Shown here piece by piece: positions 517 to 15,436 of a stretch of DNA of 41,661 nt. Made by a program: the position numbers and the translations under genes. The DNA is from a virus. The stretch lies in IMG/VR virus record IMGVR_UViG_3300024346_000163, positions 1 through 41,661 of that record. One strand, given 5' to 3'. The first letter of the stretch is position 1. Each line of letters starts with the position of its first letter. Below the pieces are notes generated by a model, which did not search any database, was not told where the DNA came from, and worked only from the letters and a program-made list of their open reading frames with translations.

Positions 517-2097
517 ATGGCAAGTTTAAAGGAAATAATCAAATTAGAATATCAGAGGTGTGCATCAGACCCGATATACTTCATGAAGAAGTATTGTATG
601 ATTCAACACCCAGTTCGTGGTAAGATTCCTTTTCATTTATTTCCATTTCAGGAAAGAACACTTACTGAATTTAAAGACCACCGATATAACATCGTATTAA
701 AATCAAGACAAACAGGTATATCAACCCTTGTTGCTGGATTTTCATTGTGGAAGATGTTATTCAACCAAGATTTTAATGTTCTTGTAATTGCAACCAAACA
801 AGAAGTTGCAAAAAACTTGGTAACCAAAGTTCGTGTAATGAATCAGTATTTACCTTCTTGGTTAAAACAAGAAACGGTAGAAGATAACAAATTATCTCTA
901 CGATACTCTAATGGTTCACAAATTAAAGCAACTTCTGCTGCAGGAGACGCAGGTCGTTCCGAGGCGTTATCACTTTTGGTATTTGATGAGGCAGCCTTCA
1001 TTGATAAGATTGAAGAAATTTGGATATCTGCTCAATCTACTTTATCAACCGGTGGTAATGCAATTATCCTTTCTACTCCAAATGGGGTGGGTAATTTCTT
1101 TCACAAAACTTGGGTGGGTGCCGAAGATGGGACAAATGACTTTAACACAATTCGTTTACATTGGTCAGTTCACCCAGAACGAGGTCAAGCTTGGAGAGAT
1201 GAACAAGAAAGATTGTTAGGTCCAAAAGGTGCTGCACAAGAATGTGATTGTGATTTCGTTTCTTCGGGGGATACTGTAATAGACCCACAACTTCTAATGT
1301 TTTATAAGGAATCCTTTTGTCAAGACCCAATTGAAAAAACAGGTTTTGATGGAAACCTTTGGAAATGGGAATATCCTGATTATCAAAAAGGTTATTTAGT
1401 GGTTGCCGATGTTGCTAGAGGTGATGGGGCTGACTACTCTACTGCTCATGTAATTGATGTAGACCAATCTGCTCAAGTTGCTGAATACAAAGGAAAATTA
1501 GATACAAAAGATTTTGGAAATTTCTTGGTGGCACTTGCAACTGAATACAATCAAGCACTACTCGTAATTGAAAATGCGAATATTGGTTGGGCAGTAATCC
1601 AACAAGTAATTGACAGAGGATATTCTAACTTATTCTATATGAGTAAGGATTTAAAATATGTGGATGTAGAGCATCAACTACATAACAAATACCGAGCAGA
1701 AGAACGAGGTATGGTTGCTGGATTCTCAACTACTCAAAAAACTCGTCCTCTCATCGTTTCCAAGATGGAACAATATATCAGGGAGAAAGATGTAACAATT
1801 CGTTCAACTCGCCTTATAGATGAGTTATTTACCTTTATATGGAGTGGTAATCGTGCAGAAGCAATGAGAGGTTATAATGATGACCTTATTATGGCATTTG
1901 CAATCGGACTATGGGTTCGGGATACTGCCCTTCGATTAAGACAAGAAGGAATTGATTTGACTAAACAGGCAATTGGCAGTATTGGTCAATCATCACTTGA
2001 TTTAGGTGGTTTTGGTGGCAATTCTTTTAATGATGAAAATCCTTGGAAAATGCAAGTTGGCGACCGAAACGAAGACTTAACTTGGCTCTTAAAATAG
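517..2097 (+). CDS. 17: terminase large subunit (gp17-like), DNA-packaging ATPase and nuclease
   Basis: This 526-residue protein has the two-domain organisation of T4 gp17 (610 residues in T4). In the ATPase domain, Walker A is S-R-Q-T-G-I-S-T at about 63-70, Walker B is L-L-V-F-D-E at about 153-158 with catalytic E158, and the coupling motif is S-T-P-N-G at about 186-190. The RNase H-fold nuclease follows, with acidic residues at D298 (V-V-A-D-V-A-R-G), E352 (V-I-E-N-A-N) and D455/D456 (G-Y-N-D-D-L). It should dock on the portal (2544-4271), translocate DNA into the prohead and cut the concatemer. The small terminase gp16 was not found in the window. The start follows the previous stop by four bases. 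Confidence 0.97.
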   Translation: MASLKEIIKLEYQRCASDPIYFMKKYCMIQHPVRGKIPFHLFPFQERTLTEFKDHRYNIVLKSRQTGISTLVAGFSLWKMLFNQDFNVLVIATKQEVAKNLVTKVRVMNQYLPSWLKQETVEDNKLSLRYSNGSQIKATSAAGDAGRSEALSLLVFDEAAFIDKIEEIWISAQSTLSTGGNAIILSTPNGVGNFFHKTWVGAEDGTNDFNTIRLHWSVHPERGQAWRDEQERLLGPKGAAQECDCDFVSSGDTVIDPQLLMFYKESFCQDPIEKTGFDGNLWKWEYPDYQKGYLVVADVARGDGADYSTAHVIDVDQSAQVAEYKGKLDTKDFGNFLVALATEYNQALLVIENANIGWAVIQQVIDRGYSNLFYMSKDLKYVDVEHQLHNKYRAEERGMVAGFSTTQKTRPLIVSKMEQYIREKDVTIRSTRLIDELFTFIWSGNRAEAMRGYNDDLIMAFAIGLWVRDTALRLRQEGIDLTKQAIGSIGQSSLDLGGFGGNSFNDENPWKMQVGDRNEDLTWLLK

Positions 2098-2143: not shown

Positions 2144-2506
2144 ATGATAAAAATGTCATCTTTATTAAACGAAGAAAATTCATATTGTGAAGAATACGAT
2201 GTAGTATCTAACCAAGATATTAAAGAGTTCGTAGAATTCATGAGAGAATATAAATCAGATGTGAATGAGGCAGAATATCAAGGGAGAGAGGTTCCTCTTG
2301 GTAAACCAATGCAAGGTGATGTTAAGAAATTTAAAGTTTATGTAAAAAACCCACAAGGAAATGTTGTAAAGGTAAACTTCGGTGCAAAGGGGATGAAAAT
2401 TAAAAAGAATAACCCCGAACGAAGAAAATCTTTCAGAGCAAGACACAATTGTGATAATCCAGGTCCTCGTCATAAAGCTAGATATTGGTCTTGTAGAAAG
2501 TGGTAA
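2144..2506 (+). CDS. head-region protein with cleavable leader and basic C-terminal domain
   Basis: This is a 120-residue protein. Residues 1-10 (M-I-K-M-S-S-L-L-N-E) resemble a T4 capsid-targeting leader, and D-V-N-E at 39-42 followed by Ala matches the predicted prohead-protease site. The remaining 78 residues are strongly basic, with an R-K-S-F-R-A-R-H-N-C-D-N-P-G-P core at about 94-108 and a Tyr-Trp-Ser-Cys-Arg-Lys-Trp end. I remember this C-terminal domain as a conserved protein of unknown function in many marine and T4-like phages. Cutting after E42 would release a small positively charged protein suited to packing with DNA, which is an inference. AAGGAG lies 10 bases before the start, and the portal gene follows. 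Confidence 0.85.
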   Translation: MIKMSSLLNEENSYCEEYDVVSNQDIKEFVEFMREYKSDVNEAEYQGREVPLGKPMQGDVKKFKVYVKNPQGNVVKVNFGAKGMKIKKNNPERRKSFRARHNCDNPGPRHKARYWSCRKW

Positions 2507-2543
2507 TAAACAAATAAAGGTTATAATTTAAAGAAAGTAAAAC

Positions 2544-4271
2544 ATGGCAGATACTTCATTTTTTGGCAGATTAACAAAACTCTTCCGTTCTCAAGCTGTT
2601 GTAACAGTTGATACAGATGGGAAGCGTAAAGTTTTTGATGCTGATGAAAGACAACAAACCAATTTATCATCCTTGCGTGATAGATACACAAAGATACAGA
2701 AATCTTTCTATGAACAAGCAGGTGGTGCACAATCAATGGCATACCAACAAGTTCGTAGAGAAGTTTTTCGTGATTATGATGCAATGGATACTGACCCTAT
2801 CCTTGCTTCCGCATTAGATATCTATGCAGATGAATCTACCTTAAAGAATGAGTTCGGAGATGTAATGACAATTACTTCGGATAACCAACGAGTTCAAGAT
2901 ATACTTAATAATTTATTTTATGATATTCTTAATGTGGAATTCAACTTGTGGCCATGGGTAAGAAATATGTGTAAGTATGGGGATTTCTTTTTAGGTTTAG
3001 AGATTGCAGAAGGTAAGGGTATTGTAAATGTAACCCCACACTCTGTTTATAATACTGAACGATTAGAAAGAACCGACCCATCAAATCCACACTCGGTAAA
3101 GTTTAAAATTACTGAAGACCCAAATGGGAAACAAGAATACGAAAACTTTGAGATTGCTCACTTTAGATTATTATCAGATACCAACTGGTTACCATATGGT
3201 AAATCAATGTTAGAGAATGGTAGAAGATTGTGGAAACAAATTTCTTTGATGGAAGATGCAATGATGATTCATAGAATCATGAGAGCTCCTGAAAAAAGAG
3301 TTTTCAAAATTGATATCGGTAACATCCCCCCAACAGAGGTAGATAACTACATGCAAAGAATTATCAATAAAATGAAGAAAGTTCCTTTCATTGATAAGAA
3401 TACTGGTGATTACAACTTAAAGTATAACATGCAGAACCTAACAGAAGATTTCTATCTTCCAGTTCGTGGTGGTGATAGTGGAACTTCTATTGATAACCTA
3501 CCTGGTTTACAGGCTGCAGATATTGAAGATATTCAATACTTAAAAAACAAAATGTTTGCTGCTCTTAAAATTCCAAGAGCATATTTAGGATACGAAGAAA
3601 ATGTAAATGGTAAAGCAACCCTTGCAGCAGAAGATGTTCGTTTCGCAAGAACAATTGAAAGAATACAAAGAACAGTAATTTCAGAATTATCTAAAATTGC
3701 AATCGTTCACTTATATGCACAAGGTATTCAAGATTCTGAAATGACTAATTTTGAATTACAATTGGTAAACCCATCTACAATCTACGAACAAGAAAAAGTA
3801 AATCTTTGGTCAGAAAAAGTTAGATTAGCACAAGATATTGCTGGTCTTAATATGTTATCAAAAGATTGGGTTTACGAAAACATCTTTAAATTATCAGGCG
3901 GAGACCAAGACGAAGAACGAGTTAAAATTCTTGATGATATTAAAGATAGATTCCGTTATCGTTCAATTGAAGACCAAGGTAATGACCCTGCTGTTGATAA
4001 TGAAGAACCGGATGATATTGAAGAATCATTGGAAAAATTAAAACAAGAAATTAAAGATAAGGGAGGTAGACCGAGAGAAGGAAATACCTATGGTAAAGAT
4101 AAACATCCATATGGTAGAGACCCTCTTGGTGACGATGAACGAACCTCAAAAAGAAGTAGAACATCGGAACAAAAAGCCCATACTTATATTTCAGGTATTG
4201 CGTCAAAACGAAAGTATTTACACGAAACTAAAAATATGTTAGACGAGGATAATATCCTCCAAGATACATAA
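2544..4271 (+). CDS. 20: portal vertex protein (gp20-like)
   Basis: This 575-residue protein is slightly longer than T4 gp20 (524). The body shows the T4-type portal pattern: an early segment with D-T-D-P-I-L-A-S-A-L-D, then A-L-K-I-P-R-A-Y-L-G near 349-358, followed by a charged helix in the wing/stem region. A dodecamer of this protein forms the DNA channel, nucleates the prohead and docks the terminase encoded just upstream. The last 75 or so residues are an unusual basic, Gly/Pro-containing extension (G-R-P-R-E-G-N-T-Y-G then H-P-Y-G-R-D-P-L-G), probably disordered. No strong Shine-Dalgarno is visible. Confidence 0.93.
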   Translation: MADTSFFGRLTKLFRSQAVVTVDTDGKRKVFDADERQQTNLSSLRDRYTKIQKSFYEQAGGAQSMAYQQVRREVFRDYDAMDTDPILASALDIYADESTLKNEFGDVMTITSDNQRVQDILNNLFYDILNVEFNLWPWVRNMCKYGDFFLGLEIAEGKGIVNVTPHSVYNTERLERTDPSNPHSVKFKITEDPNGKQEYENFEIAHFRLLSDTNWLPYGKSMLENGRRLWKQISLMEDAMMIHRIMRAPEKRVFKIDIGNIPPTEVDNYMQRIINKMKKVPFIDKNTGDYNLKYNMQNLTEDFYLPVRGGDSGTSIDNLPGLQAADIEDIQYLKNKMFAALKIPRAYLGYEENVNGKATLAAEDVRFARTIERIQRTVISELSKIAIVHLYAQGIQDSEMTNFELQLVNPSTIYEQEKVNLWSEKVRLAQDIAGLNMLSKDWVYENIFKLSGGDQDEERVKILDDIKDRFRYRSIEDQGNDPAVDNEEPDDIEESLEKLKQEIKDKGGRPREGNTYGKDKHPYGRDPLGDDERTSKRSRTSEQKAHTYISGIASKRKYLHETKNMLDEDNILQDT

Positions 4272-4294
4272 AATTAATTTAACTTTTATAAATT

Positions 4295-4304
4295 TATATT
4301 TATA
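4295..4304 (+). promoter_or_regulatory. candidate late promoter element TATATTTATA
   Basis: This is a perfect copy of the recurring element in the 74-base gap between the portal gene and the gene at 4346, 41 bases upstream of that ATG. It would drive the run of head genes from 4346 to about 12180, which has almost no internal gaps. Confidence 0.5.
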
Positions 4305-4345
4305 ATAGAGTAAATTTACTATATCATTATTGAAAGATATTAAAA

Positions 4346-5218
4346 ATGAGAAAGATTAGACATTCAAAATTTAAAAATACGGGTTTTCTTTTTGAACTAT
4401 TAACCCGTCAAATCACCCTTGAGGTGTTGAATGGCGGAGAAGAAAAGTCAAAGAAAATCATCCGAGAATTTTTCGGTGGTAAGACTGAACTTGCCAAAGA
4501 ACTTCGTTTATTTAATTTATTAATAAACGAGAGATATAACTCTGAAAATAAAGCCGAAAAATTTATCGATGCTATATTAGAAGCTCACACGAAGTTAGAC
4601 CAAAAGAAACTTCAAAGAGAAAAGTATAACCTTGTTAAATCAATCAAGGAATCTTTAGATATAGATTCATTTATGTCTTCTCCTGTAACTAACTATAAAG
4701 TATTGGCTTCTATCCACAAATTATTTGAAGCAAAGAAAATGGATGTTCTTGATGTTAAGGATGTATTTGATTCTAAATTAACATTAGTAGAGCATATTTC
4801 AACTTCAACTCCTTCTATTAAACAAAAAGAAGATAAGTTAGTTGAAGAATTTAAAAAACAAGAAAAAGACCTTCGTTTATTGACCTACAAAATACTTGTT
4901 GAGACATTTAACAAAAAATATACAAACTTAAATGAATCACAGAAGAATCTTCTTCGTGAGTATATTAACAATGTAACAAACACCTCCAATTTTGGTGAGT
5001 ATTTTGAAAAAGAACTTATCAAAACAATTACCGAACTTCATACCATGTATAAAGGAATGAAGGACAAAATTACAAAAATCAAATTAAGAGAAACTATCAA
5101 TGTTTTGAAAAAACAAAAAGTTGGTAAAAAAATTACCGATGAGCAAGTTTCTGCTTTGATGATGTCTTATGAATTGATTAAGGAGATAAAAAATGTCAAT
5201 GAAACACTCAAATCTTAA
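4346..5218 (+). CDS. conserved T4-like head-region protein, alpha-helical, function unknown
   Basis: This is a 290-residue, Lys/Glu-rich, mostly helical protein. It opens with M-R-K-I-R-H-S-K-F-K-N-T-G and then F-E-L-L-T-R-Q-I-T. I remember this N-terminal signature from uncharacterised proteins beside gp20 in marine T4-like phages. The C-terminal third is a predicted coiled coil. No enzymatic motif and no clear V-N-E cleavage site was found, unlike its neighbours. Its place between portal and protease suggests a prohead-core or assembly role. Its 3' end overlaps the next gene by 26 bases. Confidence 0.85.
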   Translation: MRKIRHSKFKNTGFLFELLTRQITLEVLNGGEEKSKKIIREFFGGKTELAKELRLFNLLINERYNSENKAEKFIDAILEAHTKLDQKKLQREKYNLVKSIKESLDIDSFMSSPVTNYKVLASIHKLFEAKKMDVLDVKDVFDSKLTLVEHISTSTPSIKQKEDKLVEEFKKQEKDLRLLTYKILVETFNKKYTNLNESQKNLLREYINNVTNTSNFGEYFEKELIKTITELHTMYKGMKDKITKIKLRETINVLKKQKVGKKITDEQVSALMMSYELIKEIKNVNETLKS

Positions 5219-6527
5219 AAATTTTATAGAAGAGCTCATCAAAGAAGTTGAAACTGAATTGGATGAATCTAATGTAACCGGTAATATTGATGGTTATCAG
5301 ACCCCTAATGCATTTTCAGATGGTGGTAGTAAAGATAAGAATCGTAAAAAGAAAATTGCTACTCAATTTGGAATGAAGATTGTCGGTAAGATGGATGAAT
5401 CTTTTATGTCTGATTTAGATATTATTAAAAAAGGTTCAAAAGACATTACCGATTTCGTTAAAAGAGTATTATCAGATAAACAATTTAAAGATGTTAGAAC
5501 TGATAAAGAATTCCATAAATACCTAAAATCATTTTACAACGAATCAGTAAATGAAGGAATCATTCAAGACCGAGAAAAACAACTAGAAAAATTACCAAAG
5601 GGAACAAAAGTTTCAGGTGGTGGTTATGGTCCTTTTGTAAAGACACACTCCAATTCATTTAAAGATTCAAAGTCAGGAAAACTATATCACTCTGCTGCAT
5701 TAGCAAGTTTTATTGGCGGATTTAAAGATTTTAAAATTAATGAAGCATACAAAGGTAATCAATCTGATTTTAAGACTGATATTGTAAATGCTTTAGACAA
5801 TGTTGGTATTTCTCCAAAAGCTATCAAAAAGATTTCTAAAAAAGGAAAAGGGTTTGAAGTAAGAATGTCATCTTATATGTCAAACAAAGATGCATGGGAA
5901 AAACTTGGTGATGTTATGGGAGCTAAATTAGTTGATTTCCAAAAAGGGTCAATCAATGTTGGCTTATACGAATCAGTAAACGAAGGAATGGTTAGACCAA
6001 GAATGGGACATAAGTTCTATCAACTAACCAAAGATGCAAAAGTAGAAGTAGATACAGGAAGATATATTACAGGTAAAAAAGGTGCATACCTTATTGATTA
6101 CTTTGATAATATATTCTATTTAGATATGAAGGCTAAAATTGCATATAATATCTTAAAAATAAAAGACCAAAGTGATTTAGGATGGAAACGAAACTTTGTA
6201 GAAGTTGATAAGGCACCTGAATTAAAAGATTGGAAATCCTATATTAAAGAAGGACTTAACGAAACTAAATCAAAAAGACCTGTAAATCGTTGGTTGGAAT
6301 TAAAAAATGATGAATCGATGCATGCTAATAAAAAATTGGCAGTTGGATTGAAAGAATTAAAATATCAATTAGCAGAAGTTGAAAAGTTTTTCACTTGGTA
6401 TAATAAGATAAAAACAATGAATGAGTTAGATTCTTCTGACTATTGGAAAAGAACTAACAATCATATTTATAAGATAAAGGAGAGAATCCTAAATATAGCT
6501 AAAACCATACAGGAGATAGAAAAATAA
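5193..6527 (+). CDS. modular head protein, predicted polyprotein with four x-N-E cleavage sites
   Basis: This is a 444-residue protein. The N-terminus is a Lys/Glu-rich helix like a capsid-targeting leader, then N-V-T-G-N-I-D-G-Y at about 27-35. Predicted prohead-protease sites follow E121 (E-S-V-N-E/G), E184 (K-I-N-E/A), E264 (E-S-V-N-E/G) and E357 (G-L-N-E/T), giving pieces of 63, 80, 93 and 87 residues after a 121-residue first part. The last piece is a helical coiled coil. AAGGAG at 5180-5185 is seven bases before the first ATG, and a second ATG at 5199 would remove two residues. The start overlaps the previous gene and the stop overlaps the next start (TAATG), suggesting coupling. No domain is recognised with confidence. 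Confidence 0.88.
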   Translation: MSMKHSNLKNFIEELIKEVETELDESNVTGNIDGYQTPNAFSDGGSKDKNRKKKIATQFGMKIVGKMDESFMSDLDIIKKGSKDITDFVKRVLSDKQFKDVRTDKEFHKYLKSFYNESVNEGIIQDREKQLEKLPKGTKVSGGGYGPFVKTHSNSFKDSKSGKLYHSAALASFIGGFKDFKINEAYKGNQSDFKTDIVNALDNVGISPKAIKKISKKGKGFEVRMSSYMSNKDAWEKLGDVMGAKLVDFQKGSINVGLYESVNEGMVRPRMGHKFYQLTKDAKVEVDTGRYITGKKGAYLIDYFDNIFYLDMKAKIAYNILKIKDQSDLGWKRNFVEVDKAPELKDWKSYIKEGLNETKSKRPVNRWLELKNDESMHANKKLAVGLKELKYQLAEVEKFFTWYNKIKTMNELDSSDYWKRTNNHIYKIKERILNIAKTIQEIEK

Positions 6528-7702
6528 TGAAAATTACAAGAGAAAACTTTAAAAATATAGTTCGCGAAACTATGATTGAAGAAAATGAATACCAACAATT
6601 CTTCAAGAAAGCTTTAGAGAAAACTGGAAAATCTATTCCTGATATGTCTGATGAAGAAAAGAAATCATTCTTTAATAAAATTGATGCTGCTTGGAAAGGT
6701 AAAGGAGAGAAGAATGAAGAATTAGTTGGCAATCAAAAGAAATTAGATGTTGATGGTGATGGTGAAATTGACGCATCTGATTTAGCTGCATTAAGAGCTG
6801 GTAAAAAGAAAGATGAAAGATTTGGTAGAGGAGCAGGTGTTGGACCAACTTTTGGTTCTGCAGACCAACCTGAAGATGAAATCGAAGAAACTGCAGTAAT
6901 GATTCATAAAAGAACTCCAAGTGGAAATATTGTTTCTAAACTTAAAGAAGAAAACGAATCAATCAACGAGGCTGATGTAGTTGGTAAAACTATATTCTCT
7001 GATGGTAAAGGTAAATTGTTCTTTGGATATTATAAAACTGATGATGCAGTTGAATTTGTAGATTACAAAACTTGGAAGAAACTTTCTTTCAAAGATGTAT
7101 CTAAAGGCGATACCAACAAAGAACGAGTAATCAAAGCAATCCTTAAAGGACAAAAACAGTTCAATAAGAAAGTTGATTTCAATATGTGGGCTAAAAAAAA
7201 TAACCCATCTTTTGAACAAACTATGGATTGGTTTATTCAAAATGGTTGGATATCTAATATCAACAAAGGTGGTATTAAAGAATCAGTAAACGAAATACAA
7301 TATAAAGATGCAGTTGAAAAATTCAATGATGAGTTAATTAAACACCCAATGGTTAAAAAGGCAGCTCAACACTACAAAAAAACTCCTGCTGAAATTGTAA
7401 AAGTATTACAACAAAGATTATCTACAAAAGGAAATCGTGGTGGTGATACAAAAGAAGTATCTATTGATTTCAAAGATACCGATAGTGGTATTAATGTTAA
7501 ACACAAAAAATCCTTTAATGAATCAGTAAACGAAGCATCAATTGATATTAAAGTTGGTGATATGGTTAAAGTTGATAACCCACATTGGGAAGGTGCTTTA
7601 GGTAAAAAAGGACCATTTAGAAGAAAAGTAAAAGCAATTTATGATGATAATGTATTCTTTACCGATGGTTCTAATTCATCAATGAAATATATTAAAAAAT
7701 AA
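6527..7702 (+). CDS. modular head protein with EF-hand-like loop, predicted polyprotein
   Basis: This is a 391-residue protein starting in TAATG overlap with the previous gene. Residues 1-148 contain a leader-like N-terminus, a segment F-F-K-K-A-L-E-K-T-G-K, and a calcium-loop pattern D74-x-D76-x-D78-G-E-I-D82 near 74-85, as in EF-hand or dockerin loops. Predicted cleavage sites follow E148 (S-I-N-E/A), E256 (E-S-V-N-E/I) and E336 (E-S-V-N-E/A). The resulting pieces are about 148, 108, 80 and 55 residues. The last looks like a small beta-barrel (V-G-D-M-V-K-V-D then G-P-F-R-R-K-V). It is probably a prohead-core or internal protein precursor. Specific functions are unknown. Confidence 0.87.
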   Translation: MKITRENFKNIVRETMIEENEYQQFFKKALEKTGKSIPDMSDEEKKSFFNKIDAAWKGKGEKNEELVGNQKKLDVDGDGEIDASDLAALRAGKKKDERFGRGAGVGPTFGSADQPEDEIEETAVMIHKRTPSGNIVSKLKEENESINEADVVGKTIFSDGKGKLFFGYYKTDDAVEFVDYKTWKKLSFKDVSKGDTNKERVIKAILKGQKQFNKKVDFNMWAKKNNPSFEQTMDWFIQNGWISNINKGGIKESVNEIQYKDAVEKFNDELIKHPMVKKAAQHYKKTPAEIVKVLQQRLSTKGNRGGDTKEVSIDFKDTDSGINVKHKKSFNESVNEASIDIKVGDMVKVDNPHWEGALGKKGPFRRKVKAIYDDNVFFTDGSNSSMKYIKK

Positions 7703-7703
7703 A

Positions 7704-7880
7704 ATGACTAAACAAAGATTATTAGAAATAATTGACGAAGAAATCCAACATGCAAAATGGGGGATTATCAACGAAGAAATTACGAGTGAGGATGAAAAGA
7801 AAATCCGTGAAATCATTCGTAGAGAAGTTTCTGCAATTTTCTTTGATTTATTTAAAAAACGAAAAACTTGGGGAGCATAA
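7704..7880 (+). CDS. small head-region protein (58 residues)
   Basis: An ATG one base after the previous stop opens a 58-codon frame ending at TAA 7878-7880, which overlaps the protease start (TAATG). The product is charged and helical (L-L-E-I-I-D-E-E, then I-R-E-I-I-R-R-E-V). It carries G-I-I-N-E at 20-24, another hydrophobic-N-E site. Size and position match the small prohead-core proteins gp67/gp68 that precede gp21 in T4, but I cannot show homology. Confidence 0.7.
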   Translation: MTKQRLLEIIDEEIQHAKWGIINEEITSEDEKKIREIIRREVSAIFFDLFKKRKTWGA

Positions 7881-8470
7881 TGGGACTATTAATTGAAACC
7901 AGATTATTTGAAGGCAAGATAAACGAAGACGAAAGTGGAAGAACTGTCGTTAAGGGTATCTTACAAAGGGCTGGTGCAGAAAACCAAAACGGTAGAGTTT
8001 ATCCAAGACCAATCTTGGAAAGAGAAGCTAAAAAATACGAACAACTTATCAAAGAAAGAAGAGCATTAGGTGAATTAGACCACCCTGATTCTTCTGTAAT
8101 CAACCTAAAGAACGTATCTCATAACGTAAGAGAGATTCATTGGGATGGTGATGATTTAGTTGGTACAGTAGAGATACTACCTACACCAAGTGGAAACATC
8201 CTTAAAGAACTTTTAAGAGCAGGTATCCTATTAGGTATATCATCACGTGGTATGGGTTCAGTAACTCCAATGAGAGGTGCCGATAGTGGTAAAGTTCAAG
8301 TTGGTGAAGACTTTGAATTGATTGGTTGGGATTTTGTATCTAACCCATCAACTCATGGTGCATTTATGACCCCATTACAAGAATCAGTAAACAATAAACA
8401 AGCGAATGTTTGCAGTGATTTTTGTAAAGCACAAGATTTGATGAGAGAAATTATAACAGAATTAACATAA
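7880..8470 (+). CDS. 21: prohead maturation protease (gp21-like)
   Basis: This 196-residue protein aligns by eye with T4 gp21, a serine protease. Conserved blocks are N-G-R-V-Y-P-R at 37-43, A-L-G-E-L-D-H-P at 62-69 with candidate catalytic H68, and L-G-I-S-S-R-G-M-G-S at 118-127 with candidate nucleophile S121 or S122. In T4 this enzyme sits in the prohead core, cuts scaffold and capsid proteins after hydrophobic-x-Glu, then removes itself. K-I-N-E at 13-16 could be an autocleavage site, and E-S-V-N-N at 168-172 looks like a decayed E-S-V-N-E. The ATG at 7880 (TAATG) is preferred to an in-frame TTG at 7868 because it keeps the gp21-like N-terminus and tight gene packing. Confidence 0.95.
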   Translation: MGLLIETRLFEGKINEDESGRTVVKGILQRAGAENQNGRVYPRPILEREAKKYEQLIKERRALGELDHPDSSVINLKNVSHNVREIHWDGDDLVGTVEILPTPSGNILKELLRAGILLGISSRGMGSVTPMRGADSGKVQVGEDFELIGWDFVSNPSTHGAFMTPLQESVNNKQANVCSDFCKAQDLMREIITELT

Positions 8471-8474
8471 TAAT

Positions 8475-8663
8475 ATGGCATTTTCAATACAAGATTATTT
8501 AGCGAATAACAAAATATCTACTGGTACTATTACCCAAGAAGTGGGTGATACTCCATATAAAGGTGGACATAATGATATTCGTAAAACAAATTACGAAGTT
8601 AAGATTACCGAAGATGGTAAACTTGATTTATACACACACAAGAAAGTTACGACAACTAAATAA
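8475..8663 (+). CDS. small protein of unknown function
   Basis: This 62-residue frame sits four bases after the protease stop and 10 bases before the next start. It begins M-A-F-S-I-Q-D-Y-L-A and its second half looks beta-rich (Y-E-V-K-I-T-E-D-G-K-L-D-L-Y). Codon use and packing fit a real gene, but no family is recognised and there is no strong Shine-Dalgarno. Confidence 0.6.
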   Translation: MAFSIQDYLANNKISTGTITQEVGDTPYKGGHNDIRKTNYEVKITEDGKLDLYTHKKVTTTK

Positions 8664-8673
8664 TATTACAACC

Positions 8674-10377
8674 ATGATAAAATTAGGTGGATTAGTATCA
8701 TTAAAACCAATCAACGAGGCGGATTACGTTCACGTTGGGTATGGTAAATATAAAGAAAAGGGTAAAGAGAAAGACCCTAACGCACAAACATTTAAAAAAG
8801 ATGATAATGATAAGTTTACACCTATTTCATCTGATGATAAGGCAGCGAAGGGAGGTGTTTCCTCTGCCGGTAAAGACGTTCCTAAAGTGAACATCTTTGA
8901 TAAACCGAAAAAAGAACCTAAATCAGATAAATCATCAGAACCTGATTACGATAAATACAATAACAAATCTCAAACTATGACAGATTTCTTTAAAGGAGAT
9001 TTGTCTATTGATGATTTACAAAAAGTTGCTAAGAAAAACTTTGATTCTGAAATTGCATCTGAAAAAGATTTAGATGGATTCTTGAATAACAAGTTCATGC
9101 AAGATGTAATGGCAGATGAACATGGTGTAGATAAAGATACTTTAATTTCTAAAGTAAAAGATTTAAAAACAGCAATGTTTGGTGGTGAGAAAGAAGGACC
9201 AAAATCTAACCTATCACCTAAAAAAGTTAAAGATGATTTAGAAGATATAAAAGGAACTAAATCTGAAAAGTTGATGAACTCTCTTTTAAAAGGAGATAAA
9301 GACCCACAAACATCTTTAGGATTGGGAGACTCACAATATGATAGTTTATTAAAAAAATTGGCTAAAATTGGTGGTGAAAGTGAACATGAAGAAAAATTTA
9401 GAAATAACAACTACTCAACTGCTGAATTAGAAAAATGGGCAAAAGAAAGAGTAGAATTAGTTTCTAACCAATCAAAAGAAACTCCATCAAAAGAAGAACC
9501 TAAATCAGAACCTGTAAAAGATTCAAGTGGTGGTAGAGCTGGAAAACCTGAAGTAAATAAAGCAGTAAGAGCAAAGGCAGATTCATTTGGTATTACACCT
9601 GAAAAATTAGGTAAAGAAGAATATCAAACAAAAATGGCTCAAGCAGCTATTGAGGCTCTTACAGATTCCAACTTCCATAGTGAAGCAAGAGAATTGGTTG
9701 CTAAATTAGAAGGGAAACCTGAATTAGCTGAGAAACCTGATTATCCAGATGTGAGGGACCCTAAATTCAATGAAAAGATGAGTGTTATTAAAGCAAAATA
9801 TGCTTCTAAATACACAGATGATGTTGACAATGATGCAAGGGAGTTGGGAACAACTGCTTCTCAAGAGGCTGGTTGGAGTGGTGATGATGCAGTTGATTCA
9901 ATTGCGTACACTTTAAGAATGAAAGGTTTCCATAAATTAGCAGATACTATCCAATCGGTAATAAAAGAAAATAAATCAACAAGTTTAAATTCTCTATTAC
10001 CAGAAAGTTTAATAATCAACGAAGGAACTCGTTCTCAAGTTGGTGTGATTAAAGGTGGAAAGATTATTTCTGTATATGTGCACTATGATGGTTATCCATC
10101 TAATATGAAAGATGGTCTTAAAAAACACATGAAAGATGAGAAGGATGTGATGACCCTTATTAAAAAGGGTGGTGCACGTGGTATCTATGATGATAAAGAC
10201 ATCGAGTATTATGGAAACATGAAACCAATGAAAGGTGATGTAAAAAATATAGATGATTATGTGAGAAACGCTGGTAATGAAGCTAGTGCAGATTATGTGT
10301 ATCTATACAACACAGCTGATAAAAAATGGTATTATGCTAAAACATACGATGATACTAAATTAAAAAAATTATTCTAA
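8674..10377 (+). CDS. modular head protein with capsid-targeting-like leader and SRAN-type C-terminal domain
   Basis: The start is placed at the ATG at 8674 (567 residues). An earlier in-frame ATG at 8545 would overlap the preceding gene and add 43 residues of poor quality. Residues 1-15 (M-I-K-L-G-G-L-V-S-L-K-P-I-N-E) followed by Ala look like a T4 internal-protein targeting leader. Residues 16-450 are a hydrophilic Lys/Asp/Ser-rich body. After I-I-N-E at 447-450 comes a separate domain, 451-567, with S-V-Y-V-H-Y-D-G-Y-P-S-N near 466-477. I recognise this pattern from small stand-alone phage proteins with C-H-W-D-G-Y-P, whose function is unknown. It is probably a packaged protein precursor. 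Confidence 0.85.
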   Translation: MIKLGGLVSLKPINEADYVHVGYGKYKEKGKEKDPNAQTFKKDDNDKFTPISSDDKAAKGGVSSAGKDVPKVNIFDKPKKEPKSDKSSEPDYDKYNNKSQTMTDFFKGDLSIDDLQKVAKKNFDSEIASEKDLDGFLNNKFMQDVMADEHGVDKDTLISKVKDLKTAMFGGEKEGPKSNLSPKKVKDDLEDIKGTKSEKLMNSLLKGDKDPQTSLGLGDSQYDSLLKKLAKIGGESEHEEKFRNNNYSTAELEKWAKERVELVSNQSKETPSKEEPKSEPVKDSSGGRAGKPEVNKAVRAKADSFGITPEKLGKEEYQTKMAQAAIEALTDSNFHSEARELVAKLEGKPELAEKPDYPDVRDPKFNEKMSVIKAKYASKYTDDVDNDARELGTTASQEAGWSGDDAVDSIAYTLRMKGFHKLADTIQSVIKENKSTSLNSLLPESLIINEGTRSQVGVIKGGKIISVYVHYDGYPSNMKDGLKKHMKDEKDVMTLIKKGGARGIYDDKDIEYYGNMKPMKGDVKNIDDYVRNAGNEASADYVYLYNTADKKWYYAKTYDDTKLKKLF

Positions 10378-10389
10378 TAGGAGTATATA

Positions 10390-11529
10390 ATGAAACTAAT
10401 TCAACTAATGAACGAAGGCGAAGAGAAAAGACCACTTTCTAATGAAGTTAAAAAACACTTCTTGGAAATTGTTTCTACATATAACAAATATCAAGAGATG
10501 ATGGATAGAAAATCCGATTTATCTCAAGTTGCTGAAACTCTTGGCGGAATCACCGAGGCTGCAAGAACTCTTGCTATCCACGAGGGTGATGATTGGTTTG
10601 ATAAACAAACTATCAAACGAAACATGAGTGAGTTAGATAAGTTAGGTAAAGAATTTGATAAGTGTGCAGTTGAAGCAAATGCATTAGACCAAAGATTACA
10701 TGGTTTATACGAAGATATGGGACATATCTTATCAAGATACTACAAGATAGGTGAAATAACCGAAGAACAGATGAAAGAACGTTTAGGAATGAACGAATCT
10801 CATTCTAATTGTGGTTGTGGATGTGGTGGAAAGACCGTAGGTGGTTGTTCTACATCAGTAAACGAATCAGTTAACGAAGAAGAAATGATTAAGTTAGGTG
10901 AGGAAGTTGAAAAAATAATGGAAGAAAATGTTCCAACTGACCCAGGTAAATGGTCTTACTACAAAGCACAAGCTAAAAAGAAATTTGATGTATATCCATC
11001 TGCTTATGCAAATGGTTGGGCAGCAAAAAAATATAAAGAAGCAGGTGGTGGTTGGAAAAAAGGTAAAAGTGAATCAGTAAACGAAGGAGTTTGGACAGCC
11101 GAACAAGAAAGAGCAGTTGCTTTATTAGATTCTCAATTTAGAAAATACCTTTCTGCTAAAGGTATAGAACCTACTTCAATTGAAGCAAGTAGAGCATGGA
11201 AATCTTATGGATTCCAAGATAAAATGAGAAAGATTTTTCCAAAATCTAAATACGAATCAGTAAACGAAGCGAAATTCGGTTATAAAGATTCAACTGCTTC
11301 TTATATCAAGAAACACAACAACGAATATAAGATTGCTGAAAAAATGAATAAAGGGAATGAACAAAAGTTTTACGATGATTTACAAGCAATGGAAGATAAA
11401 CTTGGTCATTCAAAAACAATGTTATTTATTTCAAATGCTTTAAGAGGATATGGAGTAGATATGTTCAAAGACCCTAAAATTAAAAACCCAGCTGATGCAC
11501 AAGAGGCTCTATTTTTATTGAGTAAGTAG
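10390..11529 (+). CDS. modular head protein, predicted polyprotein with YPSAYANGWA domain
   Basis: This is a 379-residue protein with AGGAG six bases before the ATG. Residues 1-9 (M-K-L-I-Q-L-M-N-E) followed by Gly are leader-like. Residues 10-135 are a helical domain. A Cys cluster follows (C141, C143, C145, C153; N-C-G-C-G-C-G-G). Predicted cleavage sites follow E159 and E163 (a doubled V-N-E), E232 and E293. The 164-232 piece contains V-Y-P-S-A-Y-A-N-G-W-A at about 201-211, a small domain widespread in phages and giant viruses (I recall DUF5872, from memory only). Pieces 233-293 and 294-379 are unrecognised helical modules. This gene shows the module-plus-linker design most clearly. Confidence 0.88.
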   Translation: MKLIQLMNEGEEKRPLSNEVKKHFLEIVSTYNKYQEMMDRKSDLSQVAETLGGITEAARTLAIHEGDDWFDKQTIKRNMSELDKLGKEFDKCAVEANALDQRLHGLYEDMGHILSRYYKIGEITEEQMKERLGMNESHSNCGCGCGGKTVGGCSTSVNESVNEEEMIKLGEEVEKIMEENVPTDPGKWSYYKAQAKKKFDVYPSAYANGWAAKKYKEAGGGWKKGKSESVNEGVWTAEQERAVALLDSQFRKYLSAKGIEPTSIEASRAWKSYGFQDKMRKIFPKSKYESVNEAKFGYKDSTASYIKKHNNEYKIAEKMNKGNEQKFYDDLQAMEDKLGHSKTMLFISNALRGYGVDMFKDPKIKNPADAQEALFLLSK

Positions 11530-11530
11530 T

Positions 11531-11815
11531 ATGAGAGTAAATTTCAAAATGGGAAGTGAATCCTTCCAAGTAGATTTCACATTAGTACCTACTAAAGGTG
11601 GTGGATTTTCTGCAATTGCAAAATCATCAAAAGATTTAGATACATTACAACGAGCAATTCCACTTGGGGTTCGGGGTGATGATTTAATTGGTAAGATACT
11701 TGCTGGTCAAATTGAAAAACAAACTAAACTTCCAATTGATGTAGATTTCGACCACAAAGGTGCAGGATATGGTTTCAAGATTGATATGTATTCACTTTTA
11801 AAATCTATTAAATAA
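11531..11815 (+). CDS. small protein of unknown function in head block
   Basis: This 94-residue frame starts one base after the previous stop and ends in TAATG overlap with the next gene. The N-terminal half looks like beta strands (M-R-V-N-F-K-M-G, then F-Q-V-D-F-T-L-V-P), followed by a helix and a final strand. No x-N-E site, leader or known domain is seen. Confidence 0.7.
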   Translation: MRVNFKMGSESFQVDFTLVPTKGGGFSAIAKSSKDLDTLQRAIPLGVRGDDLIGKILAGQIEKQTKLPIDVDFDHKGAGYGFKIDMYSLLKSIK

Positions 11816-12180
11816 TGAAACTCAACGAACTAATAGACGAAATCATTCAAGAAAACACTTGTATCCATTGTGGAAACATAGTGAATGAGGATTTAAAAAA
11901 TTGGTTCAAAGCTAAATGGGTAAACATTGGTAAAAAGGTTGGTGGAAAACATCCACCTTGTGGAACAAGTGGTGATAAGAGTGGGTATGCTAAATGTGTT
12001 CCTGCTGCAAAAGCCAAAACAATGTCCAAAAAAGAAAAAGAATCTGCAACTCGTAGAAAAAGGGCAGCACAAAACAAAGCAAATCGTGGTGGTAAAAATT
12101 CACGAGGTCAAGGAAAAAAACCTATAAATGTTTCAACTCATACAGGTGGAAAAAAATCTGGAACCGGAAAAGGTTCGTAG
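11815..12180 (+). CDS. basic head-region protein with cleavable leader and Cys-rich KHPPCG domain
   Basis: This is a 121-residue protein. Residues 1-25 contain M-K-L-N-E-L-I-D-E-I-I, a C-I-H-C pair (C16, C19) and N-I-V-N-E ending at 25, a predicted prohead-protease site. The 96 residues after it are very basic. They hold W-V-N-I-G-K-K-V-G-G-K-H-P-P-C-G and Y-A-K-C-V-P-A-A-K-A, then an R/K/G-rich tail. I remember this W-x-x-I-G...K-C-x-P pattern as a recurring phage domain of unknown function (possibly DUF6321, from memory only). It could bind packaged DNA, which is inferred from charge. It is the last gene of the long head run. Confidence 0.82.
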   Translation: MKLNELIDEIIQENTCIHCGNIVNEDLKNWFKAKWVNIGKKVGGKHPPCGTSGDKSGYAKCVPAAKAKTMSKKEKESATRRKRAAQNKANRGGKNSRGQGKKPINVSTHTGGKKSGTGKGS

Positions 12181-12222: not shown

Positions 12223-12546
12223 ATGGCAAAACATACAACTAAAGTAAGTGTAGAAGTTAGAAAAGGAGACATTAACAAGGCACTTAAAATTTTTAAAAGA
12301 AGGGTAATGGATTCAGGACACCTTCAATGGTTAAAAGAGAATCAAGAATATACGAAACCTAAAACGATTCGTAGAAAACAAAAACTTGATGCTATAAGAA
12401 GAAACCAAAAGGAAGTTTTGTTTGATAAATGGGAAAGTGGGGATAATTCCATCACTTTATTTAATAAAAAGAAACAAAAAATCCAAAATACTGAAAAATC
12501 TTCAGAAAAAACCATAGAAAATTATGGTTTAAAACTTGAAAGATAA
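12223..12546 (+). CDS. rpsU: bS21-like ribosomal protein
   Basis: This is a 107-residue protein. Residues 8-65 follow the bS21 pattern: V-E-V-R-K-G-D then A-L-K-I-F-K-R-R, a Gly-containing turn, E-Y-T-K-P and R-R-K-Q-K-L-D-A-I-R-R (E. coli bS21 has A-L-R-R-F-K-R, Y-E-K-P and R-K-R). Normal bS21 is about 65-70 residues, so the last 40 residues are a Lys/Ser-rich extension. bS21 binds the small subunit near the anti-Shine-Dalgarno, and some phages of aquatic bacteria carry a copy. It has its own upstream element and a terminator directly behind it. The start region (T-T-T-A-T-A-ATG) has no Shine-Dalgarno, unlike several neighbouring genes. Confidence 0.8.
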   Translation: MAKHTTKVSVEVRKGDINKALKIFKRRVMDSGHLQWLKENQEYTKPKTIRRKQKLDAIRRNQKEVLFDKWESGDNSITLFNKKKQKIQNTEKSSEKTIENYGLKLER

Positions 12547-12705: not shown

Positions 12706-13797
12706 ATGAGTAATTCAAAATTGTTAAAAGAAGCAATTGCTGATGCTAAAGCGGTTCGTGAAACTGCTATCGCTAATGCTAAAATCGCTCTTGAAGAAGC
12801 TTTTACTCCACGTTTACAATCTATCTTATCACAAAAACTTCAAGCTGAAATGGAAGGCGAAGAAGAAGAAGCTGATTTAGAAGAAAATGAAGTAAACGTA
12901 ACTGAAGCAGAAGATGATTCAGAGGAAGCAGTTGAAGAAACTGTAACTGAAGAAGAAGAATCTGAAGAAGGTGAAGAAGAAGTATCTGAAGGCGAGTACA
13001 ATGCAGAAGGTGAAGAAGAAATCACTGCTGAATCTGAAGAAGAAATGTCTGAAGAAGAAGCAATGGAAGAAGCTGAAGAAGAAGCAATGGAAGATGCTGA
13101 AGAAGAAGACGAGGACGAATTGGACCTCGAGGCAATCATTAGAGAACTTGAAGAAGAACTTGATGATGAAGAAGAAGAAGAAGTTGAAGACATCGCTAAT
13201 GATGTAGTTGACGGACACGAAGAAGAAATGCATGATGAAGAATCATCTGAAGAAGAACCATCTGAAGAAGATGCTGAAGAAGTATCTGAAGAAGAAGGTG
13301 AAGAAGAAATGCATGACGAAGAAATCGACCTTGAAGAAATCCTTCGCGAGATGGGTTACGGTGAGGACGAAGAAGAAGTTAACGAAGAAGAATCAGAAGA
13401 AGAAGATTCTGAATTAGAAGAAGTAAAAGCTGAACTTGGTGAAGCAATCTCTACTATTAAAGAATTAAAGAAAACTATCAACGAAGTTAACTTATTGAAT
13501 GCAAAATTACTTTACACTAACAAATTATTCCGTTCTTACGATTTAACCAACGAACAAAAACACAAAGTTGTTGAAACATTAGACAGAACTGGTAATGTTA
13601 GAGAAGTAAAATTAGTATTCTCAACCTTAGCTGAATCACTTAAAATGGGTGGTACATCTAAAAAAGTAAAACAAACCGCTAAATTAACTGAATCATTTGC
13701 ATCTAAACCAGTTGCTTCTACTGCTCCTAAAAAGGAAATTATCGCAGAAAGCAATTCTTTAGCTGAAAGATTCAAACAATTGGCAAACATCAATTAA
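12706..13797 (+). CDS. 22: prohead core scaffold protein (gp22-like), very acidic
   Basis: This is a 363-residue protein directly before the capsid gene, as in T4. Residues 1-48 are a helical leader. Residues 50-240 are dominated by Glu/Asp runs, with repeats such as M-H-D-E-E. Residues 245-363 form a helical domain with L-T-N-E-Q-K-H-K-V and F-S-T-L-A-E-S-L-K, resembling the T4 gp22 C-terminus. Candidate protease sites include V-T-E/A near 65-68, L-T-E/S and I-A-E/S, fitting the fate of gp22, which is degraded to small peptides in the capsid. The acidic tract is far larger than in T4. The poly-Ser and poly-Phe antisense frames here are shadows of GAA codons. Confidence 0.85.
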   Translation: MSNSKLLKEAIADAKAVRETAIANAKIALEEAFTPRLQSILSQKLQAEMEGEEEEADLEENEVNVTEAEDDSEEAVEETVTEEEESEEGEEEVSEGEYNAEGEEEITAESEEEMSEEEAMEEAEEEAMEDAEEEDEDELDLEAIIRELEEELDDEEEEEVEDIANDVVDGHEEEMHDEESSEEEPSEEDAEEVSEEEGEEEMHDEEIDLEEILREMGYGEDEEEVNEEESEEEDSELEEVKAELGEAISTIKELKKTINEVNLLNAKLLYTNKLFRSYDLTNEQKHKVVETLDRTGNVREVKLVFSTLAESLKMGGTSKKVKQTAKLTESFASKPVASTAPKKEIIAESNSLAERFKQLANIN

Positions 13798-13822: not shown

Positions 13823-15436
13823 ATGGCAAATTTTGATTTATCTAAACTTATGGAAGGCAAAAACCCACAACAAGTAATGTTGGCTGAAACTCGCCAATTA
13901 CAATCTAAATGGGAAAAAACTGGTCTTCTTGAAGGTTTAAAAAGTAGAGAGCAATCTCAAATCGCAGTTCTTTTAGAGAACCAAGCAAAACAATTATTAG
14001 ATGAAGCTACCGCAACAGGTACTTCAGCAGGTTCAGAAGAATGGTCAGGCGTTGCTTTACCATTAGTAAGACGTATCTTTGGTGAAATCGCATCAAAAGA
14101 ATTCGTTTCTGTACAACCAATGAACTTACCATCAGGTCTTATTTTCTATTTAGACTTTAAATACGGTACTGCACAACCAGGTAACCCATCATTCAACGGA
14201 ACTTCACTTTTTGGTGGTAATGGTTCTTCTGCATTTGATGGTGACTTCGGTAGAACTAAAGCAGCTGTAAAAGGTCTTTATGGTGAAGGTAGATTTGCTT
14301 ACACTATTAACGATTCAACTTCTACTATCGCAGTAGGAAACGTAACTATCGCTTCTGCTTCTTGGGATGAAGTAGGTTTTGATTCTTCATTATCAGCTTC
14401 TATCGCTGCAGATGAAATTGCAAAAATCTCTTTCGCTCATTCAGGTCTAACTCGTCCTGATTTAGATGCAGTTCGTTCATTCTACTTCTCATCTTCAGCA
14501 TTCGCAGGTGCAGATTTATTCTACCCAGCTCACACTAAAGTCGATGGTGCTAATGTAGTATTCTTCGCTAAATGTGATGGTGGACCAAAAGCTGCAGTAG
14601 AAGTTAAATATTCTGAACAACCAACCGCTAACACTCGTGGTGATTTCGAAGATGCTGCTCCATCTGAACCAGCAACTGATTTAGGAATTCCTGAAGTTGA
14701 TTTAGAATTACGTTCAGAGGCTATCGTTGCTAAAACTCGTAAGTTGAAAGCAGTATGGACTCCTGAATTGGCTCAAGACTTAAATGCTTACCACTCAATC
14801 GATGCAGAAGCTGAATTAACTGCAATGTTATCAGAGTACATCTCTTTAGAGATTGACCTTGAAATCCTTGATATGTTGAAAGCTAACGCATTGACTACTG
14901 AATACTGGTCAGTAACTTTAGGTGAAGAGTACAACTCTGCAACAGGTGCTTGGGTTGCTAGTGGAGCTGCTGCAGCTTACACTAAAAACTCTTGGTTCCA
15001 AACTTTAGGAACTAAATTGAACAAAGTATCTAACAAAATTCACCAATTAACACTTCGTGGTGGAGCTAACTTCGTTGTTGCTTCTCCAGACGTATGTACT
15101 ATCTTGGAATCTATCCCAGGATTTACAGTTTCTGCAGATAAAGATGCAATGTCTTTCGCTGCTGGTGTAACTACTGTTGGTGCTATCGCTAACCGCTACA
15201 CTGTTTACAAAAACCCATACATGACTTCTAACGAAATCTTGTTAGGTTTCAAAGGTTCTAACTTCCTTGAAACAGGTGCTGTTTATGCTCCATACGTTCC
15301 ACTTATTATGACTCCATTGGTGTACGACCCAACTAACTTCACTCCACGTAGAGGAGTTATGACTCGTTACGCTAAGAAAATGGTTCGTCCTGAATTCTAC
15401 GGAAAAATCTATGTTAAAGATTTGAGTAACATCTAA
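13823..15436 (+). CDS. 23: major capsid protein (gp23-like)
   Basis: This 537-residue protein (T4 gp23: 521) has an HK97-type fold by family. Residues 1-61 look like the propeptide, ending L-L-D-E at 58-61 followed by A-T-A-T-G. T4 gp23 is cut at the equivalent place after L-T-E. Conserved blocks include L-V-R-R-I-F near 81-86, V-S-V-Q-P-M-N-L-P-S-G near 95-105, and a C-terminal segment with Y-A-K-K-M-V-R-P-E-F-Y. AGGAG lies nine bases upstream. Codons shift to those of a highly expressed gene (many GCT, ATC, TAC, AAC). A strong terminator follows. It forms the hexamers of the head shell. Confidence 0.96.
   Translation: MANFDLSKLMEGKNPQQVMLAETRQLQSKWEKTGLLEGLKSREQSQIAVLLENQAKQLLDEATATGTSAGSEEWSGVALPLVRRIFGEIASKEFVSVQPMNLPSGLIFYLDFKYGTAQPGNPSFNGTSLFGGNGSSAFDGDFGRTKAAVKGLYGEGRFAYTINDSTSTIAVGNVTIASASWDEVGFDSSLSASIAADEIAKISFAHSGLTRPDLDAVRSFYFSSSAFAGADLFYPAHTKVDGANVVFFAKCDGGPKAAVEVKYSEQPTANTRGDFEDAAPSEPATDLGIPEVDLELRSEAIVAKTRKLKAVWTPELAQDLNAYHSIDAEAELTAMLSEYISLEIDLEILDMLKANALTTEYWSVTLGEEYNSATGAWVASGAAAAYTKNSWFQTLGTKLNKVSNKIHQLTLRGGANFVVASPDVCTILESIPGFTVSADKDAMSFAAGVTTVGAIANRYTVYKNPYMTSNEILLGFKGSNFLETGAVYAPYVPLIMTPLVYDPTNFTPRRGVMTRYAKKMVRPEFYGKIYVKDLSNI

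Follow-up and report, generated by a model that had tools for sequence, protein, structure and literature searches.

In T4, the head protease gp21 cuts after L/I-X-E, processes its own C-terminus, and removes the propeptide of gp23 (PMC9026906), and type IV restriction is blocked by the injected internal proteins Ip1-Ip3 (PMC9026906, PMC12373910). Multidomain cargo thought to be delivered with the DNA has been described as polyvalent proteins in phages and conjugative elements and has been likened to polyproteins (PMC5512222), and the N-terminus of P1 DarA is removed by the head protease Pro (PMC12810830). The ejection proteins of SPN3US and phiKZ are cut after Glu at several motifs by a distant gp21-type protease (PMC10052503). 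Precedents exist for leaders, for cutting by gp21, for core proteins with several cuts, and for multidomain polyvalent proteins (PMC9026906, PMC10052503, PMC5512222, PMC12810830, PMC12373910). A search of the open-licence literature found no published cargo polyproteins assembled from exchangeable modules that are joined at head-protease sites.

The DNA analysed here (the window; 41,661 nucleotides) is a linear IMG/VR virus fragment carrying T4-like phage head genes. Its gp23 is 51-55% identical to those of Flavobacterium phage immuto, Microcystis phage Mel-JY01, and an uncultured 484-kb phage, and one relative of these aquatic phages infects Flavobacterium. The cargo-type genes sit between TerL and gp22 (Table 1), and the seven open reading frames (ORFs) singled out in the initial annotation (2144, 5193, 6527, 7704, 8674, 10390, and 11815) are all present with the starts as claimed, the one at 7704 being a 58-aa gene. 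Two of the encoded proteins, termed carriers 1 and 2, are placed between gp20 and gp21 in both the window and its relatives. That interval holds the core genes 67 and 68 in T4. Carrier 2 also contains an EF-hand/dockerin-like stretch, DVDGDGEIDASDLAALRAGK (6725-6790), that falls below the Pfam cut-off and is possibly calcium-related; DVDNDGD stretches in cyanophage proteins resemble it. A homologue of ribosomal protein S21 (12223-12546; Pfam E = 4e-11) is encoded within the head cluster, and relatives have one too.

Table 1. Head and cargo-type genes of the window with their candidate cutting sites (window coordinates; ↓ marks the predicted cut).
Feature	Positions	Strand	Candidate sites (codons)	Description
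TerL	517-2097			
2144 protein	2144..2506	+	2165-2173, 2261-2269	Leader MIKMSSLLNE and acidic stretch to SDVNE↓, then basic module (phrog_7595)
gp20	2544-4271			
Carrier 1	5193..6527	+	5547-5555, 5736-5744, 5976-5984, 6255-6263	444 aa; conserved N part (..NVTGNIDGYQTPNAF..), inserted modules, conserved C part KRPVNRWLELK; MNE at 6417-6425 judged no site
Carrier 2	6527..7702	+	6962-6970, 7286-7294, 7526-7534	391 aa; leader MKITRENFKNIVRETM, EF-hand-like stretch, modules after
58-aa protein	7704..7880	+	7767-7775	24-residue leader ending IINE↓, then basic peptide
gp21-type prohead protease	7868..8470	+	7919-7927 (KINE↓D), 8375-8383 (PLQE↓S, past catalytic domain)	Peptidase_S77; start codon uncertain; sites are its own
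8674 protein	8674..10377	+	8710-8718, 10015-10023	Leader MIKLGGLVSLKPINE↓ (first site), long middle part, second site, phrog_1987 module GTRSQVG
10390 array	10390..11529	+	10408-10416, 10789-10797, 10858-10866, 10870-10878, 11077-11085, 11260-11268	Leader MKLIQLMNE↓ (10408-10416), conserved helical core unit, linker (next three sites), DUF5872/phrog_27331-like module, site 11077-11085, helical module, site 11260-11268, helical module
94-aa protein	11531..11815	+		Without site; flanked by two cargo genes
11815 protein	11815..12180	+	11881-11889	25-residue leader ending IVNE↓, basic module (phrog_23735, weak DUF5872)
gp22-like scaffold candidate	12706..13797	+		Acidic; basis is position and composition
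gp23 major capsid protein	13823..15436	+	13997-14005 (LDE)	Propeptide border LLDE↓A

Across the eight cargo-type genes (2,174 aa), [VILM]NE was observed 21 times against 2.0 expected from composition-preserving shuffles, [VILM]NE[AG] 11 times against 0.26, and ES[VI]NE 8 times against 0.01. The rest of the window (10,204 aa) holds 12 copies of [VILM]NE (7.9 expected) and none of [VILM]NE[AG] (1.1 expected) or of ES[VI]NE. These counts confirm that the excess of N-E motifs is real and restricted to the cargo-type genes. In the window, ESVNE is encoded 7 times by nearly identical 15 bases (GAATCAGTAAACGAA and variants). Several details of the initial annotation had to be revised. The sites, described as usually preceding Gly or Ala, do so in only about half of the cases (11 of 21), and leaders of 9-25 residues ending in N-E exist in five proteins (2144, 7704, 8674, 10390, and 11815) rather than in four. 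Among the listed sites, those at residue 409 of the 5193 protein (MNE) and at residue 3 of the 11815 protein (MKLNE) are doubtful; the former lies in the conserved C-terminal part, where a helix is predicted, and is not retained as hydrophobic-x-E in more distant relatives. Some of the sites first listed are probably not sites.

The modules, the leaders, and the location of sites at domain borders, as originally proposed, were supported by comparison. Matches to protein families open at a site or shortly behind one: phrog_7595 covers residues 40-120 of the 2144 protein, phrog_1987 covers residues 451-560 of the 8674 protein, and phrog_23735 covers residues 26-91 of the 11815 protein. Two structure predictions, of an overall confidence too low to judge the exposure of the sites, agreed in part, with most sites between predicted domains and one at a helix end. 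The model of the 10390 protein (mean pLDDT 60) strings helical units together, with sites 9, 136, 163, and 232 in low-confidence stretches between units and site 293 at the helix end; the model of the 5193 protein is poor (46), with one more confident small domain at approximately residues 190-250, between the sites at 184 and 264. Foldseek searches with both models returned no useful match, the one significant hit being an uncharacterised phage protein, and a PDB sequence search with the window 10390 protein and one long array returned none. The arrays tested match almost only families without known function and include no PADLOC family, and no peptidase family was found in the window cargo proteins or in the relatives' arrays tested. 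The carriers had no informative family match in PHROGs or NCBIfam, and none to gp67 or gp68.

A protease of the fitting type is encoded beside the cargo genes, as had been claimed: the neighbouring gp21 matches Pfam Peptidase_S77 (E = 7e-27), the gp23 propeptide border LLDE↓A was confirmed, and hydrophobic-x-Glu↓ is found both there and at the C-terminal border of gp21 itself. In 72 gp21 homologues the segment past the catalytic domain mostly reads P-V/M-N-E↓S, and gp23 has L-L-D-E↓A or a close variant. The cargo sites of the window agree with the T4 gp21 rule in the form hydrophobic-x-Glu↓. A strict site near the N-terminus is present in 15% of the relatives' cargo proteins, compared with 4.5% in shuffles, and is at chance in their core and downstream proteins. 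The leaders resemble the capsid targeting sequences of T4, which have 10-19 residues. An indirect precedent for such a leader on a virion protein is the cytidylyltransferase of cyanophage S-SM1 (cluster T4-GC190), which starts MKKFSAFLNE↓A and whose cluster was detected in purified virions (PMC3037559).

Relatives were collected through gp21, resulting in 80 loci with a common gene order and strongly varying gene lengths. A motif scan of these relatives gave 80 copies of ESVNE in cargo proteins against 0.0 expected, and none in the core or downstream proteins of these loci. P1 is specific for Glu: in the relatives' cargo proteins, [VILM].E[AGS] occurs 700 times against 263 expected and its Asp and Gln versions are at chance level. 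A profile of 452 sites, for which V/I/L/M at P3 and N/S/T at P2 were preset by the search pattern, favours A/E/G/S at P1' and frequently has E-S at P5-P4. Carrier 1, which follows a 290-aa gene, comprises 159 aa in L014 (the N part, one site, and the C part KRPVNRWLELK), 444 aa in the window, and 887 aa in L012, because different modules are inserted between the same N and C parts; the 887-aa array had no tblastn match among cultured phages. Hydrophobic-x-E is located immediately N-terminal of the C part in nearly all distinct relatives, with or without inserts, although these relatives share ancestry and are not independent events. The border motif stands at one of two main offsets and has at least eight different residues at P2; L051 is a clear exception, and in a few relatives, such as L039, L075, and L082, the motif is shifted by one to four residues. 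Because the motif is kept with and without inserts, carrier 1 was probably a cut protein before it received cargo.

To take a census of modules, 193 non-redundant array proteins were split at the sites, which yielded 758 modules in 304 families with a median length of 81 aa. The modules are mostly basic (median pI 9.3), and a single chain, encoded near virion genes in the window and relatives alike, carries several unrelated domains. Three or more members are present in 55 families, 43 of which occur next to two or more different neighbours on each side. The phrog_1987 module stands alone behind a leader of 14-23 residues in L016, L017, and L039 and closes longer proteins in the window and at five further loci; the residues preceding it are hydrophobic-x-E in nine of nine cases. 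Similarly, the phrog_7595 module of the 2144 protein also terminates an 858-aa array in L232. By these comparisons the same module occurs alone behind a leader or within an array, and modules are exchanged between proteins and between phages with breakpoints at the site. A first test of BLAST ends with masked motifs was weak, at only about 2-fold above random, and the module-neighbour and DNA-joint tests are clearer. Avoidance of the motif inside modules was sought and not found; hydrophobic-x-E↓[AGS] is instead slightly enriched there (167 against 110 expected), so exposure must matter if cutting occurs.

The joints were located in DNA by comparing shared modules (at least 85% DNA identity) that have a different neighbour. 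At the linker, identity falls from approximately 0.9 to 0.33, in 284 pairs for one side of the module and 98 for the other; as the pairs were picked to share a module and differ in the neighbour, the drop is expected but its sharpness and position are not. Similarity reaches background at the site while the 15-base linker GAATCAGTAAACGAA stays. The ESVNE codons TCA, GTA, and AAC are used in 78, 93, and 69% of cases versus 36, 47, and 35% predicted from codon usage, and around ESVNE sites no consensus extends past GAATCAGTAAACGAAG. From these joints we infer recombination at a short shared linker sequence. Viral contigs were also scanned, with gp21 not used, for two exact copies of GAATCAGTAAACGAAG located 195-225 bases apart. 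Double copies were present in 49 stretches, and in all 49, when re-found in DNA, the spacing is a multiple of three and no stop codon lies between the copies. The same head genes as in the window family, all on the same strand, accompany 45 of 48 loci in the examined stretch. One match to ESVNE DNA outside the head cluster (G009, 5631) is at the end of a tail-fibre-like protein, with no array.

Additional array-like proteins were seen in other genomic contexts. Enzyme-polyprotein-like proteins of 780-1230 aa are encoded upstream of TerL in L043 (269-3883), L070 (1054-3402), L014 (25-2943), and L145 (8-3706), and hydrophobic-x-E separates some of their parts. Those of L043 and L070 combine a leader (e.g. 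MNRLAQFLIESILGE↓A) with a cytidylyltransferase/NMNAT-like domain and DUF5661; inspection by eye showed an RNA-ligase-like KTDGQ motif in one part of the L043, L070, and L145 proteins, and the L014 protein has a polyA-polymerase head domain. A 252-kb relative (G003) has a second array, 823 aa long and encoded close to tail-fibre-like genes (L113, 2564-5035), which combines a P-loop kinase/zeta-toxin-like domain (weak match) with modules common to head-cluster arrays. In the uncultured 484-kb phage (LR756508; L003, 854-9762), many separate small genes adjoin gp21, whose gene has an apparent intein interruption. Most of these small genes begin with a similar amphipathic leader, MKxxKLRKIIREEI, and possibly represent a one-leader-per-cargo version of the same strategy. 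The gp22-like scaffold of immuto (L001, 16731-17972) contains a tandemly duplicated unit, NEGFEQWLDSVSAQMDKFG, with hydrophobic-x-E before each copy. Immuto also encodes a modular protein of smaller size (L001, 14683-15765) that has sites such as FIAE↓A, MIQE↓A, and LNE↓A. In Synechococcus phage S-BM3, the T4-GC_119 protein (L091, 5548-6561) joins DUF5872-like, CWKGYKQVGMK, and PRRKSFCARM modules in one chain, with hydrophobic-x-E between some of them, and about 500 phage records, among them Prochlorococcus and Pelagibacter phages of 35-38 kb, have matches to parts of this protein.

The reading that we consider likely is that polyproteins borne by leaders or carriers enter the prohead, that gp21 frees their modules, and that recombination swaps these at the linker. 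Either a short amphipathic leader at the N-terminus or a conserved carrier protein of the prohead core would take the chain into that core, where the gp21-type protease would cut after hydrophobic-x-Glu, most commonly in the form E-S-V-N-E↓A/G. Cutting would remove the leader and release several small, mostly basic modules of approximately 80 residues inside the head, which would probably remain with the DNA and be injected to counter host defences. Modules would be gained, lost, and swapped between genes and phages through joints at the 15-base ESVNE linker, and every swap would therefore preserve the reading frame and the cutting site. We give even chances to a stronger version, in which this is a self-propagating cassette system whose 15-base linker is both recombination handle and head-protease site, producing combinatorial arrays of small injected effectors that are built, traded, and cut, with one leader loading a library of modules into every virion.

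If gp21 does cut the arrays, the pieces could still be structural core filler like T4 gp22, gp67, and gp68, expelled or left over rather than delivered to the host, and the carriers do occupy the position of T4 core genes 67 and 68. Cleavage of the T4 core proteins yields multiple fragments, most of which are lost from the head (PMC9026906); delivery does not automatically follow from release, and SPN3US propeptides are likewise cut several times (PMC10052503). Fast exchange of hundreds of unrelated module families would be unexpected of a filler, however, and the modules are mostly basic and recur as single leader proteins; we regard this explanation as unlikely. Somewhat less probable again is that the chains stay uncut and that ESVNE, besides being the scar of recombination, acts as a flexible linker in multidomain, polyvalent-like head proteins. 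Conservation of linker DNA beyond codon usage and exact joints are both possible without proteolysis, and the motif is not depleted inside modules, but an uncut chain fits poorly with a carrier-1 border that keeps Glu at P1 and a hydrophobic residue at P3 while P2 varies widely, with sites directly after leaders, and with the match between these sites and the gp21 and gp23 borders. Chance or composition has almost no probability as the source of the motif: the genome is AT-rich and the cargo proteins are rich in Lys, Asn, and Glu, but this origin was ruled out by the shuffles, which preserve composition and give 2.0 copies against the 21 observed, by the motif counts in relatives, by the DNA joints, and by the double hits in viral contigs, 49 of 49 of which are in frame and open.

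If polyprotein loading and release by gp21 are correct, these aquatic phages load effectors by polyprotein, as opposed to the one-leader-one-protein scheme of T4, and one head-targeting tag would load many different small proteins per particle in a large T4-like aquatic phage family. The 304 mostly nameless module families would then form a catalogue of candidate injected anti-defence proteins with borders set by the sites, and a protease site could double as a frame-safe recombination joint. The cassette mechanism has a fair chance of meriting its own class. Like IPI-IPIII and Alt of T4, the cargo proteins described here combine a short N-terminal leader ending in hydrophobic-x-Glu, a head protease of the same family, and small phage-variable proteins; unlike these, which have one leader per protein, a chain here can comprise as many as ten modules or more, every joint carries a site, and exchange of modules takes place at the DNA of the site. 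They share their location with head genes with T4 gp22, gp67, and gp68, which gp21 cuts at several places (PMC9026906), but the fragments of those proteins are scaffold remnants, whereas the predicted cut units here are distinct folded-looking modules in many orders. In SPN3US and phiKZ, multiple cuts destroy one propeptide and do not separate several modules, unlike what is predicted here. The polyvalent proteins are similar in being multidomain chains and putative DNA-accompanying cargo; their release has been proposed to occur via embedded peptidase domains, whereas the arrays described here would rely on a separate protease acting on a site repeated at the borders of modules of approximately 80 residues.
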